Below, piece after piece: positions 16,643 through 28,701 of a DNA stretch of 43,881 bases. The position numbers were made by a program, and so were the translations under genes. The notes beneath the pieces are model-generated. The model was not told the DNA's origin. It saw only the letters and a list, made by a program, of their open reading frames with translations, and searched no databases. Source of the stretch: Candidatus Avamphibacillus intestinigallinarum (GTDB taxonomy: Bacteria; Bacillota; Bacilli; Bacillales; Amphibacillaceae); the NCBI GenBank assembly GCA_018711205.1, contig DVIO01000151.1, forward strand, positions 1 through 43,881, written 5' to 3'. How positions within the stretch are numbered: position 1 is the first letter of the stretch; each line of letters opens with the position of its first letter.

Positions 16643-16910
16643 ACCGCACTAAGTGGGGAGCTAGCGGCACCCTGTACTCGCAATCCGCTACAGCGAGACT
16701 GACCGCCGTCTTCGGCATGGCGGTTGCAAGGTCTGCCTTAAGGAATTGGTGTTGACATTTGAGTCCTGCGCAACAGAAACCTACGAACCCTGTCAGGTCC
16801 GGAAGGAAGCAGCAGTAAGTAGTCATTTCCGTGTGCCGCGGGGAAGCTCAGATTGAGCCATGAACTTAAGTAACGCTTGGGACTGCCATGACAATGACGG
16901 TGTGCGGCTT
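16643..16910 (+). ncRNA. ffs: Signal recognition particle RNA (scRNA, long Bacillus type)
   Basis: The S-domain signature GTCAGGTCCGGAAGGAAGCA lies at about 16793-16812 in the plus orientation, followed by the GTGTGCC strand of the symmetric loop. The ends pair: CCGCAC (16644-16649) with GTGCGG (16902-16907). About 268 nt is the long form with an Alu domain, as in B. subtilis scr (~270 nt). It binds Ffh and targets membrane and secreted proteins. Its own promoter lies upstream and a terminator downstream, both plus-strand. It lies between tadA and dnaX as in B. subtilis, but both neighbours are on the minus strand. Ends are approximate. Confidence 0.95.
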
Positions 16911-18748: not shown

Positions 18749-19201
18749 TTACGTATCTGTTTCGTTACCAAGCCCCATCAATTCAAGCAGTTCCGCTTCA
18801 TTTACAACTAAATCCGCCAATGTATATTGATCCAACACATCTAAAAACGCTCGTAGCGCCGCATTCAGGGCATGTTTTAATTTACATGCTGGCGAAATGA
18901 CACAATGATTCGCTCCTTGATCAAAGCATTCTAAGAGGACAAAATCATTTTCCATTTCTCTGACAACCGTTCCTACATTAATATCCTCAGCAGGTTTCGC
19001 TAAGCATATACCACCATTACGACCACGAATCGTTTCTAAATAACCAAGTTTATTCAGCTCGAACACAATCTTACCTAAATGATGTGTCGAGATTTTATAA
19101 ATATAAGAGATTTCTTTAATGTTCGCTCGTTCGCCTTCTTTTTTCATCGCTGTAAATATTAAAACGCGCAATGCGTAATCTGTATATTTTTTTAAATTCA
19201 T
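18749..19201 (-). CDS. nsrR: Nitric-oxide-sensing repressor NsrR (Rrf2 family)
   Basis: Rrf2-type winged-helix repressor that binds DNA with an intact [4Fe-4S] cluster and releases on nitrosylation. 150 residues. The winged helix begins MNLKKYTDYALRVL, the recognition region is ISTHHLGKIVFELNKLGYL, and the wing is GRNGGICLAKP. The three cluster cysteines fall at C92, C100 and C106, the positions I recall for B. subtilis NsrR. It is divergent from hmp, its classic target, and an excellent operator lies between them. Confidence 0.95.
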   Translation of the reverse strand: MNLKKYTDYALRVLIFTAMKKEGERANIKEISYIYKISTHHLGKIVFELNKLGYLETIRGRNGGICLAKPAEDINVGTVVREMENDFVLLECFDQGANHCVISPACKLKHALNAALRAFLDVLDQYTLADLVVNEAELLELMGLGNETDT

Positions 19202-19265
19202 TTAAGCTCTCCACCTTTGTTGTGCATTACTTCACAATATTGTAACACATTTTGCAAAAACAGCC

Positions 19266-19294
19266 TTGAAACGGGATTCTACGAGGATTACAAT
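19266..19294 (+). promoter_or_regulatory. hmp promoter
   Basis: TTGAAA (19266-19271) and TACAAT (19289-19294), 17 bp apart. The NsrR operator begins 5 bp downstream and covers the expected start site. Confidence 0.7.
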
Positions 19295-19295
19295 A

Positions 19296-19318
19296 AAGAT
19301 GTATTCAGAATACATGTT
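19296..19318. promoter_or_regulatory. NsrR operator
   Basis: The perfect palindrome ATGTATTCAGAATACAT (19299-19315) lies inside AAG...TT flanks. This is the known NsrR box layout (two ATGTATT-type half sites). Its position over the hmp start site predicts repression until NO damages the cluster. Confidence 0.85.
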
Positions 19319-19397
19319 TAAGAAACTTCACGATGTGCATAGTAAAAAGAACTGCAAGATGACCAAAAATGTAAAACAATTTTAAGGAGTGGTTCAT

Positions 19398-20624
19398 ATG
19401 TCAGCACCTCTTAGCCAAGAAACAATGGATATTGTAAAAGCAACTGTACCTGTTTTAGAACAACATGGTAATGCGATTACAAAACGATTCTACGAAAGAA
19501 TGCTTTCTGAAGTACCAGAATTAAACAATATCTTTAACCAAACAAACCAGAAAAAAGGTGGCCAACCGAAAGCCCTAGCAAATACGGTGTATGCGGCTGC
19601 AGCGAATATTGATAACCTCGGTGCGATTTTACCGGTTGTGAAACAAATCTCAGAAAAACATAAAAGCTTAATGATTAAACCAGAACATTATCCTATCGTT
19701 GGAAAATATTTATTACTAGCGATGAAAGATGTCTTACAAGATGCGGCAACAGACGAAATCCTGAACGCTTGGGAGCAAGCATATGGCGTGATTGCTGATG
19801 TATTCATCAATGTTGAAAAAGAAATGTATGAGCATGACAAAGAAACAACAGGTGGCTGGAATGGCTTCCGCGATTTCAAAGTCGTCGATAAAGTACGCGA
19901 ATCTGAAGTCGTGACGTCATTTTATTTAGCACCTGTTGATGGTGGACCGATTGCAACACATAAACCGGGACAATATATTTCCATTCAAGCAGATATTCCT
20001 GGTGAAAAATATACACATCTACGTCAATACAGCTTGTCTTGTAAACCTGGTGCAGATATGTATCGCATTAGCGTGAAACGTGAAGCTGCAAAAGGCGATC
20101 ACCCAGACGGTATCGTATCTGTATATTTACACGATCAAGTTGAAAAAGGTGACGTCTTAAAATTATCTGCTCCATCAGGTGATTTCGTCTTAAATACAGA
20201 AGACACACGTCCACTTGTTTTACTTAGCCGTGGTGTCGGATTAACCCCTGTCATGAGTATGTTAGAGCATGCGATTGCGACTCAGCCTGAGCGTGAGATT
20301 CACTTCGTATATGCAACTTATTCATCAGCGTTCCATCCGATGAAAGAACGTATGCAACAAATCGCAAAAGATCATCCAAATGTGAAAATGCACTTCGTCT
20401 ATAACCGACCAGACGCAGAAGATGTAGACACATTTGATTATGAAGGATATGTAGATGAAGCATTGTTACGTTCAATCTTACCTACACCTGATGCTGCATA
20501 TTACTACTGTGGCTTCGAAGACTTCATGCGCACAGTTGCTCAATCTCTGAAAGCATACGGCGTAAAAGACGAAGACAGCCAATACGAATACTTTGGCCCA
20601 CAACTTGGTATGGCTATTGCCTAA
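19398..20624 (+). CDS. hmp: Flavohemoglobin (nitric oxide dioxygenase)
   Basis: Oxidises NO to nitrate using O2 and NAD(P)H. 408 residues from the ATG at 19398 (AAGGAG 8 nt upstream; a GTG at 19389 is also in frame). The globin domain spans about 1-145 with the B10 tyrosine in RFYERML (Y32) and proximal His in EKHKSL (H88). FAD-binding barrel about 155-260 with RQYSLS. NAD domain with LLSRGVGLTPVMSML, and the C-terminal YYCGFEDFM and EYFGPQ blocks. Regulated by NsrR through the operator at the promoter. Complete and intact. Confidence 0.97.
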   Translation: MSAPLSQETMDIVKATVPVLEQHGNAITKRFYERMLSEVPELNNIFNQTNQKKGGQPKALANTVYAAAANIDNLGAILPVVKQISEKHKSLMIKPEHYPIVGKYLLLAMKDVLQDAATDEILNAWEQAYGVIADVFINVEKEMYEHDKETTGGWNGFRDFKVVDKVRESEVVTSFYLAPVDGGPIATHKPGQYISIQADIPGEKYTHLRQYSLSCKPGADMYRISVKREAAKGDHPDGIVSVYLHDQVEKGDVLKLSAPSGDFVLNTEDTRPLVLLSRGVGLTPVMSMLEHAIATQPEREIHFVYATYSSAFHPMKERMQQIAKDHPNVKMHFVYNRPDAEDVDTFDYEGYVDEALLRSILPTPDAAYYYCGFEDFMRTVAQSLKAYGVKDEDSQYEYFGPQLGMAIA

Positions 20625-20988: not shown

Positions 20989-22362
20989 CTAAAACAACAT
21001 GCGCTCCACAAGCCGTTTCATACGCGACAGCACCTCTGGTATTTTGAAGGGCTTTAACATATAGTCATCCGCTCCTTCCTCTAATGCTTGCACAATCGAC
21101 GTTTCACACGAGCGAGCTGACAACATAGAAATGACAATATTCTCCTCTGGATAGTCCTTACGAATTTGTGCCAGCACATCTTTCCCGTCCATTTCTGGCA
21201 TCATCCCATCAAGTAATATGATATATTTTTCGCCTGGTACATACCAATCTGAATTCAAGAAGGTTACCCCATCTGTATACGTATGGACATGCGTCTTTAT
21301 ACTAGAATCGACTGTCCATTGTAAGAAGCTCTGCTCTAACATCGTACGGATCAAACGATTATCATCAATAATGACGACATGCAAATGGGATACAACAGTT
21401 TGATCAATCCGTTTCGAATACATACGAATCTGATTTCTACCTGATGCCTTACTTTGATACAATGCTTGATCCGCTTGATAAATCAATTGTTCTTGGGATA
21501 GATTTGACTCATGCCCAACGACAATCCCAGCCGAGAAGGTCACTTTAAATGATTCTCCATCCGCTTCAAACGTCTTCTGAGCAAACGCCTCACGAATCCG
21601 TTCCACTAACAACAGAGCCCCTTCTTCATTTGTCCGTGGCAAAATAAGCTGAAATTCTTCGCCACCATAACGACAAACATCATCTGTTTTGCGTTTATGC
21701 AATTGAATCGTCTGCACCAGCTCACGTAAAATAAGATCTCCAATCAAGTGACCATATGTATCATTGATATGTTTAAAATGATCCAAATCAATCATCACAA
21801 TCGAGAACGTATCCCCATGTCGCTCATAATCGGCAATCAATTCGTCTAATATATGTGTCATATATTTCCGGTTATAAGCCCCTGTTAATTCATCAACCAA
21901 TACCTTTTGCTGATGCATGAGACGTGTTTTTAAATAAGGTACAAACCAATCTGGTGAAAATATTTTCTTAGCGACATAATCTGTTGCCCCCATTTCATAA
22001 GCGAGTACGCGTCCTTCTAGTGACGTTTCTTCACTCACAAAAGCAATCGGTGTATGACTCAGATTAACCGCCTTTGTAAACCCTTCGAGGTCTTCTATCG
22101 TGACTTCGTGAATATCAATATTCATTAAAACAAAATTCGGTTTCATGGCATAAAACAGCTCAAAGCCCTTATATAAATGTAAGGCCATGATCACATGGTA
22201 GCCTTCTCCTTCTAAGCGATTTTTAATATTTGTCAAAAAATCAATTTGATCATCTATTAATAACACAACGGGTTGCTCGATTCGTGCTGTATGTCCTTCT
22301 ATAGGTGCTTCATGAATATCTCGACTCAACGTTACAATCGTATCTTTCGCTTTGTTTACCAA
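20989..22362 (-). CDS. REC-GGDEF-REC diguanylate cyclase response regulator
   Basis: Makes c-di-GMP from two GTP. From the TTG start at 22362 (behind AAAGGAGAGG, 6 nt spacing) it has 457 residues. The open frame runs to 22551, but the extra residues look non-coding and would overlap the divergent EAL gene. Receiver 1 (about 31-148) keeps the D37/D38 pair but has N81 where the phospho-Asp belongs (FVLMNID). GGDEF domain (about 155-318) has active GGEEF at 233-237 and an I-site RKTD at 224-227. Receiver 2 (about 327-455) is canonical: D334/D335, D385 in LLDGMMP, K437 in LKPF. No membrane segment or adjacent histidine kinase is visible. Confidence 0.92.
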   Translation of the reverse strand: MVNKAKDTIVTLSRDIHEAPIEGHTARIEQPVVLLIDDQIDFLTNIKNRLEGEGYHVIMALHLYKGFELFYAMKPNFVLMNIDIHEVTIEDLEGFTKAVNLSHTPIAFVSEETSLEGRVLAYEMGATDYVAKKIFSPDWFVPYLKTRLMHQQKVLVDELTGAYNRKYMTHILDELIADYERHGDTFSIVMIDLDHFKHINDTYGHLIGDLILRELVQTIQLHKRKTDDVCRYGGEEFQLILPRTNEEGALLLVERIREAFAQKTFEADGESFKVTFSAGIVVGHESNLSQEQLIYQADQALYQSKASGRNQIRMYSKRIDQTVVSHLHVVIIDDNRLIRTMLEQSFLQWTVDSSIKTHVHTYTDGVTFLNSDWYVPGEKYIILLDGMMPEMDGKDVLAQIRKDYPEENIVISMLSARSCETSIVQALEEGADDYMLKPFKIPEVLSRMKRLVERMLF

Positions 22363-22544
22363 GAGTAGCCTCTCCTTTATGACTTGCTTACTATAATATT
22401 GATAACGCTTACATAGGAATAAATACTTAATAAAATCGCTAATCAGATTGATTTCTGAATTTTCATATGGTACTATATATTCATTATACATATCTATTTT
22501 CAAAAATATAGTCCAAAAATCACAAATTATAGGAGTCGTTTGTT

Positions 22545-23300
22545 GTGGCACAAACTGAAATGAAGCAATTTGAAAAAATCATTGACGAAAGTTTATATTT
22601 CCATCACTTTCAACCGATTTTTGCAGTTGATGAGCTCAAAGCCTGCGGGTATGAGGGCTTATTGCGTTCTCAGTATATCAAGAACCCTCAACATTTATTT
22701 GATGTTGCTACAAAAACAGAACGTTTAGCTCAATTAGATTGGGGCTCATTTACCAAAGCAATGGATCATCTTAACGAACATTTCAATTATTTTGCTAGAG
22801 ATAGCGAATTCTTCTTTAACGTCTATCCATCTACACTTGTTTCAGATCGCTTTCTCTCAGAATTTACAGCATACCTAGAAACGACATCCATTCCAGCGAA
22901 CCATCTCATCTTAGAATTAAATGAATCTGAATTCATTGAAGACTTCAGCCAACTGTATACTGTCGTAAAAGAACTACAAAAGCTTGGCATACGTGTTGCC
23001 CTAGATGATATCGGACGAGGGTTATCTCCATTTACACGTGCACTTGAATTGTATCCAGATATGATTAAACTGGATAAATATTTTTCTGATAATCTAGCGA
23101 AACAACCGGCGAAGCAAAATGTTCTCAAAACCATCGTTAACTATTGCCACGATACGAAGGTTACCGCCATTTTAGAAGGAGTAGAGGAAAGAAAAGATTT
23201 TGAAGTTGCCAAAGATTTAGGGGTTGAATACGTTCAAGGCTTTTTATTAGGAAAGCCTGATACATTAGCAAACCATTTCTCGATGATTCAACATCATTAA
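22545..23300 (+). CDS. EAL-domain cyclic-di-GMP phosphodiesterase
   Basis: A 251-residue stand-alone EAL protein. Catalytic residues are all present: the EGLLR form of the EAL motif (E37, R41), N92 in FNVYP, E124 in LELNES, D154-D155 in ALDDIGRG, K175 in IKLDK, E211 and E214 in EGVE, and Q231 in VQGFLLGKP. Loop 6 differs from DDFGTG, so activity is likely but not certain. It starts at GTG 22545 with AGGAG 9 nt upstream. It is divergent from the REC-GGDEF-REC gene, making a synthase/hydrolase pair. Cytoplasmic, no sensor domain. Confidence 0.92.
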   Translation: MAQTEMKQFEKIIDESLYFHHFQPIFAVDELKACGYEGLLRSQYIKNPQHLFDVATKTERLAQLDWGSFTKAMDHLNEHFNYFARDSEFFFNVYPSTLVSDRFLSEFTAYLETTSIPANHLILELNESEFIEDFSQLYTVVKELQKLGIRVALDDIGRGLSPFTRALELYPDMIKLDKYFSDNLAKQPAKQNVLKTIVNYCHDTKVTAILEGVEERKDFEVAKDLGVEYVQGFLLGKPDTLANHFSMIQHH

Positions 23301-23308
23301 GCGTAAAC

Positions 23309-23350
23309 AAAAAGCAGATGTCACTTTTCTAGTAGTGACATCTGCTTTTT
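23309..23350. terminator. Bidirectional terminator
   Basis: A perfect 16-bp stem (23309-23324 with 23335-23350, AAAAAGCAGATGTCAC), shared by the convergent EAL and peptidase genes. Confidence 0.9.
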
Positions 23351-23352
23351 AT

Positions 23353-24108
23353 TTATTGTAAAAGACTAAGATACCAATCTATTAAGCCATCCCCATAAAA
23401 ATATGTATATAAAGCAGCGAGGACAAGATATGGGCCAAAGGGAATTGGCTGTTTTTTCTCTAGTTTATTCCAGCCTTTCAGCAGCATACCAACAATCGCT
23501 CCCACGAGACAGGCAAGGAAAAAGGTCACCAGTACTTTAGCTAAACCGAGCACAATCCCTAGGACGCCTAATAACTTCATGTCACCAGCTCCCATCCCGC
23601 CACGACTGACTAAAATTATCATCATCACGAGCAAGAAACCACCGACAGCCCCAGTAATACTCGACCACCATGGATCAAGGGGATGAATGATGCGTAGCAC
23701 AATAAATAAGGGCAGAAAGCTTAATAAAATATGATTTGGAATAAGCATATAGCGAACGTCTGATACAATCAAAATCATCGCCAATGAAATGAGTAATAAC
23801 ACCGTGATAAGCTCCCATGTAAAACCAAGCTGCATATACGCAAACGTAAATAATAATCCTGTGCCGAGTTCAATAATTGGATACATCAATCCAATCGGAG
23901 CAGCACAATGACGACATTTACCTTTTTGAAGTAGAAAAGAGAAAAGAGGTATTAACTCAATCGCTGATAGTTGCTGCTCACAATGTGGACACCGTGAACG
24001 ATCGTTCGTAAACACTTCTCCGAGTGGCACTCGCAAACCGACTACATTAAAAAATGAACCAAATACAATCCCAAATATAAAAAATGTTATCCCTATCGCA
24101 AGCTCCAT
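23353..24108 (-). CDS. comC: Prepilin peptidase (type IV leader peptidase, A24)
   Basis: Membrane aspartyl protease of 251 residues that cleaves and N-methylates type IV-like prepilins such as ComGC; B. subtilis ComC has about 248. An N-terminal membrane segment is followed by the cytoplasmic zinc loop CPHCEQQ...CRHC (about 41-67). The two catalytic aspartates lie in IVSDVRYMLIPN (about 117) and GMGAGDMKLL (about 176). About seven further hydrophobic segments. The comG pilin genes are not in the window, so this is an orphan locus. Symbol by similarity and size. Confidence 0.9.
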   Translation of the reverse strand: MELAIGITFFIFGIVFGSFFNVVGLRVPLGEVFTNDRSRCPHCEQQLSAIELIPLFSFLLQKGKCRHCAAPIGLMYPIIELGTGLLFTFAYMQLGFTWELITVLLLISLAMILIVSDVRYMLIPNHILLSFLPLFIVLRIIHPLDPWWSSITGAVGGFLLVMMIILVSRGGMGAGDMKLLGVLGIVLGLAKVLVTFFLACLVGAIVGMLLKGWNKLEKKQPIPFGPYLVLAALYTYFYGDGLIDWYLSLLQ

Positions 24109-28441: not shown

Positions 28442-28675
28442 ATAAAAATACTCGTCCCTTTATAAGAAAGGGACGAGTATGATGTAGAATACCCGCGATA
28501 CCACCCATGTTGAGATGTGAGACTGTAATCTGCATCTCCGGCTTTACTGGCAACATAACGGGGCCAATCCGAGTTGATTTACTATCATTTCGATCAACTA
28601 GTTCTAGGATGGATTCCTTACCTGCCTCCATCGATTCACACCAGCCATCGACTCTCTGTTAAGAAGACAAACAAG
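28442..28675 (-). promoter_or_regulatory. Serine T-box riboswitch leader of serS
   Basis: Reads uncharged tRNA-Ser to switch off termination. On the minus strand: stem I with GGTGTGAA and, in the canonical GGAA-NNN-A context, a UCC serine specifier codon at 28613-28611. A stem III GAGATG/CATCTC follows, then the T-box GGGTGGTATCGCG (about 28505-28493). The terminator is a 14-bp stem (28448-28461 with 28467-28480) ahead of TTTTTA. CGTCCCT in the terminator 5' arm can pair with the T-box GGG and GCG, forming the antiterminator. The T-box bulge reads UGGUAUC, not the usual UGGNACC. 28331-28441 is the remaining leader with no other element. Confidence 0.93.
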
Positions 28676-28701
28676 TACTATTTCCTATCATAACTTTATA
28701 C

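Follow-up and report, generated by a model that had tools for sequence, protein, structure and literature searches.

A diguanylate cyclase gene near dnaA in Candidatus Avamphibacillus intestinigallinarum probably descends from a phosphorelay output enzyme that was separated from its operon, lost its HPt domain and came to lie beside a gene for an EAL protein. The cyclase would still be controllable through its second receiver domain (REC2), and the two proteins would constitute a small module for c-di-GMP synthesis and degradation. We infer the two enzymatic activities, the phosphorylation and the output of this module from what was observed directly, namely sequence, domains, motifs, gene order, relatives and trees. 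The following features were assigned in the window, by which we mean the whole stretch of 43,881 nucleotides that was analysed.

20989..22362, minus strand: diguanylate cyclase, REC1-GGDEF-REC2, 457 aa, TTG start (Pfam and motifs).
22363..22544, no strand: gap between the cyclase and EAL start codons, 182 bp; minus-strand cyclase frame open throughout, no detectable HPt similarity.
22545..23300, plus strand: predicted stand-alone EAL phosphodiesterase, 251 aa (Pfam EAL, 150.8 bits; active-site positions).
23309..23350, plus strand: terminator-like hairpin with a T-rich tail, 3' of the EAL gene and before a convergent prepilin peptidase gene.

These open reading frames, with their strands, coordinates, divergent orientation and 182-bp spacing, agree with an earlier sequence-only reading of this DNA, with the caveat that the gap may be partly coding because the cyclase frame stays open for 63 codons upstream of the TTG. 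This TTG at 22362 was taken as the best cyclase start since AAGGAG sits 9 nt upstream of it. The upstream open frame (22363..22551, minus strand) reaches as far as position 22551, where a GTG overlaps the start of the EAL gene, and a stop-free run of this length had a probability of ∼0.0026 in a first-order Markov simulation. The 63 codons may be translated as part of the N-terminus, or may be what is left of an eroded domain.

Pfam recognised a GGDEF domain in the cyclase with 155.6 bits (cut-off 23.8), plus two Response_reg stretches. Its GGEEF sequence fits the GG(D/E)EF motif of active diguanylate cyclases and an I-site (RxxD) is present as RKTD, so from its motifs the protein is a predicted-active synthase. 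The REC-GGDEF-REC architecture with intact GGEEF and I-site had been recognised before. Absent from that description was that REC1 carries an Asn in place of the phospho-acceptor Asp; REC2 keeps the acidic pair, the phospho-Asp, the Ser and the Lys. In the EAL protein, the Pfam match begins at profile position 15, and all 10 active-site positions checked are kept (among them the E, N, E, D, D, K, E and Q ligands for metal and substrate and the loop-6 Glu; position names follow RocR numbering), which bears out the claim that this stand-alone EAL protein retains its catalytic residues. The same ten positions are kept in 44 of the 46 stand-alone EAL proteins that were compared, the exceptions being L056 and L057. 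The convergent prepilin peptidase gene occupies positions 23353..24108.

The proximity to dnaA supports the proposed location in the origin region, and the absence of an adjacent histidine kinase was likewise upheld, as none was recognisable by reading among the window ORFs of at least 120 aa. Elsewhere in the window we noted a large SRP RNA (16644..16907, plus strand), an Rrf2-family regulator gene divergent from a flavohaemoglobin gene (18749..20624), and a T-box leader (28466..28700, minus strand) just upstream of a gene named by reading as serine-tRNA-ligase-like. The Rrf2/flavohaemoglobin pair resembles an NsrR-Hmp nitric oxide response pair.

A first search for relatives of the cyclase gave matches in 61 of 61 genomes, which were mostly at the level of the GGDEF domain, with full-length matches in the minority; the 60 relatives that it listed all belong to other genera. 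At E ≤ 1e-90, relatives were found in 4 of 159 genomes of the same taxonomic family, and at E ≤ 1e-75 in 137 of 397 genomes of the order. The window plus 64 further loci were assembled, each with ∼7 kb of flanking sequence in either direction (less at contig ends), and these 65 loci contain 66 family members. These loci were drawn from the full-length hits of the first search, the additional hits at E ≤ 1e-90, one partial hit (L116) and, from the search of the order at E ≤ 1e-75, 37 regions that correspond to 38 of the top matches only. Most members are ∼30-53% identical to the window cyclase over nearly the whole length, and the relatives are HPt-REC-GGDEF-REC proteins of ∼520-580 aa with ∼100 extra residues before REC1. 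GGEEF and REC2 are intact in the family and the I-site usually is; the REC2 phospho-Asp is kept in 65 of 66 members, the window cyclase included. When N-termini alone were compared with Pfam, Hpt was the best family for all eight His-bearing members tested (two above the cut-off, six below) and for neither of the two members without the histidine (L069 and L115). On the basis of gene content, we place this HPt-REC-GGDEF-REC cyclase family in Bacillales. Among open-licence papers, judged by their titles and the beginnings of their abstracts, we found none on this family, its operon or a published name for it.

These cyclases usually share an operon with a hybrid histidine kinase and a small CheY-like response regulator, and in many cases a glycosyltransferase and a HEAT-repeat protein are encoded there too. 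Locus L174 (1761-9080), for example, has the order cyclase, HEAT-repeat protein (just under the Pfam cut-off), glycosyltransferase 2, CheY-like regulator and hybrid kinase. Operons of this type recur at many loci and resemble a phosphorelay-controlled exopolysaccharide system. Among the 53 members with the HPt histidine, 20 have the kinase, the glycosyltransferase and the HEAT-repeat protein within 7 kb, 14 have only the kinase, 4 have the kinase and the glycosyltransferase, 11 have the glycosyltransferase and the HEAT-repeat protein without the kinase, and 4 have none of the three. Eleven of the 13 members lacking this histidine have none of these partner genes within the same distance; the other two are L109, with a glycosyltransferase and a HEAT-repeat protein, and L116, a 316-aa ORF without HPt or REC1, with a kinase. 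Loss of the HPt histidine thus goes with absence of an adjacent hybrid kinase: the kinase is present for 39 of 53 members with the histidine versus 0 of 12 without it (Fisher p 2.4e-6 for 65 members, a value that leaves out L116, uses a slightly different kinase criterion and ignores kinship). Kinase fragments near the locus ends of some members were not counted as kinases. By manual count, the members without the histidine sit in about eight places on the cyclase tree.

The window cyclase falls inside the HPt-REC-GGDEF-REC tree, in a set of six rows with 100/100 support, and its sister is the cyclase of locus L069 in genome G012 (99/91). Its N-terminus gave nothing relevant in Pfam even at E 10, with no N-terminal HPt carrying the histidine, and neither the response regulator nor the hybrid kinase adjoins it. 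An HPt remnant was also sought in the open frame upstream of the TTG and rejected: a profile of the HPt regions of relatives scored -1.6 there, with 843 of 2000 shuffles equal or better, pairwise alignment to three relatives gave shuffle fractions of 0.78, 0.80 and 0.21, and Pfam returned no Hpt match, even at E 10. Because an HPt thus shows no match and scores no better than shuffled sequence, we file the window cyclase as a descendant of the family and not as a full member.

Since REC2 keeps everything needed for phosphorylation, it is doubtful that the locus is a "self-contained" switch, as had been suggested. The cyclase may instead still belong to a phosphorelay in trans, in which a kinase or HPt protein encoded elsewhere specifically phosphorylates REC2, making it a two-component output; we regard this as possible, with the balance somewhat against it. 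The conservation of the REC2 phospho-Asp speaks for such a partner, as do several HisKA/HATPase matches to the kinase query in the genome, which comprises 1,992,963 bases on 181 contigs. A full-length ortholog of the family's hybrid kinase was not found in this genome, however; the strong matches cover the HisKA-HATPase part only and none spans the whole kinase. The family's glycosyltransferase had no match in the genome either, and the same query matched 36 of the 66 member neighbourhoods. A kinase, or a second cyclase, may have been missed because the assembly is 90.9% complete. The in-trans alternative overlaps with the decoupling that we favour, and differs from it only in the specificity of the phosphate donor.

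Next, we considered the pair in other genomes. Genome G012 encodes a cyclase and an EAL protein divergently, 175 nt apart, with 53% and 39% identity, respectively, to those of the window. The HPt histidine of this paired cyclase is replaced by Tyr and its REC1 phosphorylation site is also Asn. A second cyclase paralog in G012, which belongs to the same six-row set, has the HPt histidine, the REC1 Asp, the response regulator and the hybrid kinase. In the EAL tree, the window protein and that of L069 form a group (88/84), whose neighbours are two EAL genes belonging to a different family of the order; the identity of the window protein to these two is slightly higher (43% and 42%) than to the L069 protein (39%). 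No other genome listed had both genes adjacent according to the coordinates read in three relatives searches, in which the E cut-offs could hide distant pairs. A scan of genome contigs that started from a two-row EAL alignment was uninformative, yielding a single distant locus, from Vibrio. Separately, in genome G530 (L212:7449-9437) a different GGDEF gene precedes a relative of the EAL gene by ∼75 nt on the same strand, which is an independent pairing. The divergent pair is a two-genome variant built from known parts: the conservation in Bacillales that the sequence-only reading had proposed to check extends to one other genome and not across the order. What stood of that reading is a synthase and a phosphodiesterase, both predicted to be active, in neighbouring positions near dnaA with no kinase adjoining; shared control through the common intergenic region was not supported. 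At the threshold used, a consensus scan found 4 sigma-70-like sites versus 4.9 expected by chance, with the minus strand having none, and relaxed patterns for four sigma factors yielded nothing better than sites with 2-3 mismatches.

This lack of a promoter signal above chance is what would be expected if the two genes were neighbours by inheritance only, each acting on the cellular c-di-GMP pool without common regulation or interaction. In line with that, an EAL gene lies within ∼7 kb of just 3 of the 12 members without the histidine (the window and L069, as well as L109, where the distance is 4.7 kb), and by their coordinates the two gene families are apart in the other genomes listed. Yet the pair stayed together in the window and G012 despite different flanking genes and divergence to 53% and 39% identity, and we consider mere inheritance rather unlikely.

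Loop 6 of the window EAL protein reads DDIGRGLSPF, which departs from DFG(T/A)GYSS; it departs further in the G012 protein, though in the stand-alone EAL family as a whole it is mostly DDxGKG. The divergence of this loop, which is described as essential for activity in PMC12943098, might suggest that the EAL protein has no catalytic role, binding c-di-GMP for instance, and acts as a regulator of the cyclase. This is improbable given the intact active-site positions of the protein and the hydrolysis of c-di-GMP by purified stand-alone EAL proteins of Listeria, including PdeB (Lmo0131), in PMC4125290.

Counting against a decoupled cyclase in a module with its neighbour are the occurrence of the pair in two genomes only, the 39% identity and moderately supported grouping (88/84) of the EAL proteins, the deviating loop 6, the lack of an evident common promoter, the incompleteness of the genome and the 63 open codons, which could encode a translated N-terminus. 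If decoupling is nevertheless correct, the ancestor would have been an HPt-REC-GGDEF-REC cyclase in an operon with a CheY-like regulator, a hybrid kinase and often an exopolysaccharide-type glycosyltransferase. In a lineage common to the window and G012, the cyclase would have been separated from this operon, with the HPt inactivated in G012 and lost in the window and the REC1 phospho-acceptor lost, and would have ended up divergent beside a stand-alone EAL phosphodiesterase. An unlinked donor may then phosphorylate the intact C-terminal REC2, as the remaining control point, and so set cyclase activity; product inhibition through the I-site would limit the cyclase, and the EAL enzyme would remove c-di-GMP and set the off-rate.

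How much of the c-di-GMP metabolism of this organism the pair accounts for was assessed by a genome-wide inventory. GGDEF had two hits, in the window and on contig C63, and the latter reads SDHGF at the motif by inspection, leaving the window cyclase as the only intact GGDEF protein found in the 90.9%-complete genome. EAL had three hits (the window, C30 and C63), counted as two genes: since the ends of C63 and C30 encode almost the same peptide stretch, these contigs probably carry one broken GGDEF-EAL gene with a degenerate SDHGF, split at the contig ends (L067:8279-9157 and L068:3558-4574). An ORF on C63 was named flagellin-like by reading. A search for c-di-GMP-I riboswitches in the genome was empty, as were its controls. 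One PilZ protein was found, with a YcgR-type N-domain below threshold. In Bacillus subtilis, the YpfA/MotI counterpart of this protein brakes the flagellar motor. By analogy with B. subtilis DgrA/MotI, as presented in PMC7064775, the single YpfA/MotI-like PilZ protein would be the likely reader of c-di-GMP. A still bolder proposal, that the cyclase swapped its HPt and kinase for the divergent phosphodiesterase, is the genome's only synthase and forms with its neighbour a minimal homeostat by which a single PilZ receptor for motility is steered, appears doubtful to us.

Compared with known systems, the window cyclase shares with the HPt-REC-GGDEF-REC family the REC-GGDEF-REC core, an intact REC2, GGEEF and the I-site that is usual there, and differs in that the HPt, the phospho-Asp of REC1 and the operon partners are absent and an EAL gene lies divergently next to it. 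Its best match of solved structure is PleD of Caulobacter (1w25), which likewise has two receivers and one GGDEF domain. PleD has the order REC-REC-GGDEF and is phosphorylated on its first receiver, whereas the intact receiver of the window cyclase is C-terminal; the NCBIfam PleD model gave 217 bits, below its cut-off of 474. Listeria PdeB (4q6j) is also a stand-alone EAL protein of a Gram-positive bacterium and matches the window EAL protein with 62.6 bits over residues 13-239, but is a distant relative and is not known to be encoded beside a REC-GGDEF-REC-type cyclase. None of DgcK, DgcP and DgcW of B. subtilis is known to be a REC-GGDEF-REC protein. The network of that species (these cyclases, PdeH and DgrA/MotI) is likewise small with a PilZ motility receptor, as described in PMC7064775, but has three cyclases versus the one intact cyclase found here.

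The locus offers a traceable decoupling of a multistep phosphorelay output enzyme, for which relatives that have a working HPt can be set against relatives that do not. If the pair is the core c-di-GMP module of the organism, it would constitute a natural network of very small size, whose synthesis, degradation and read-out could each be removed singly. Worth keeping are this decoupling history and the possibility that the window encodes the only cyclase of its genome.
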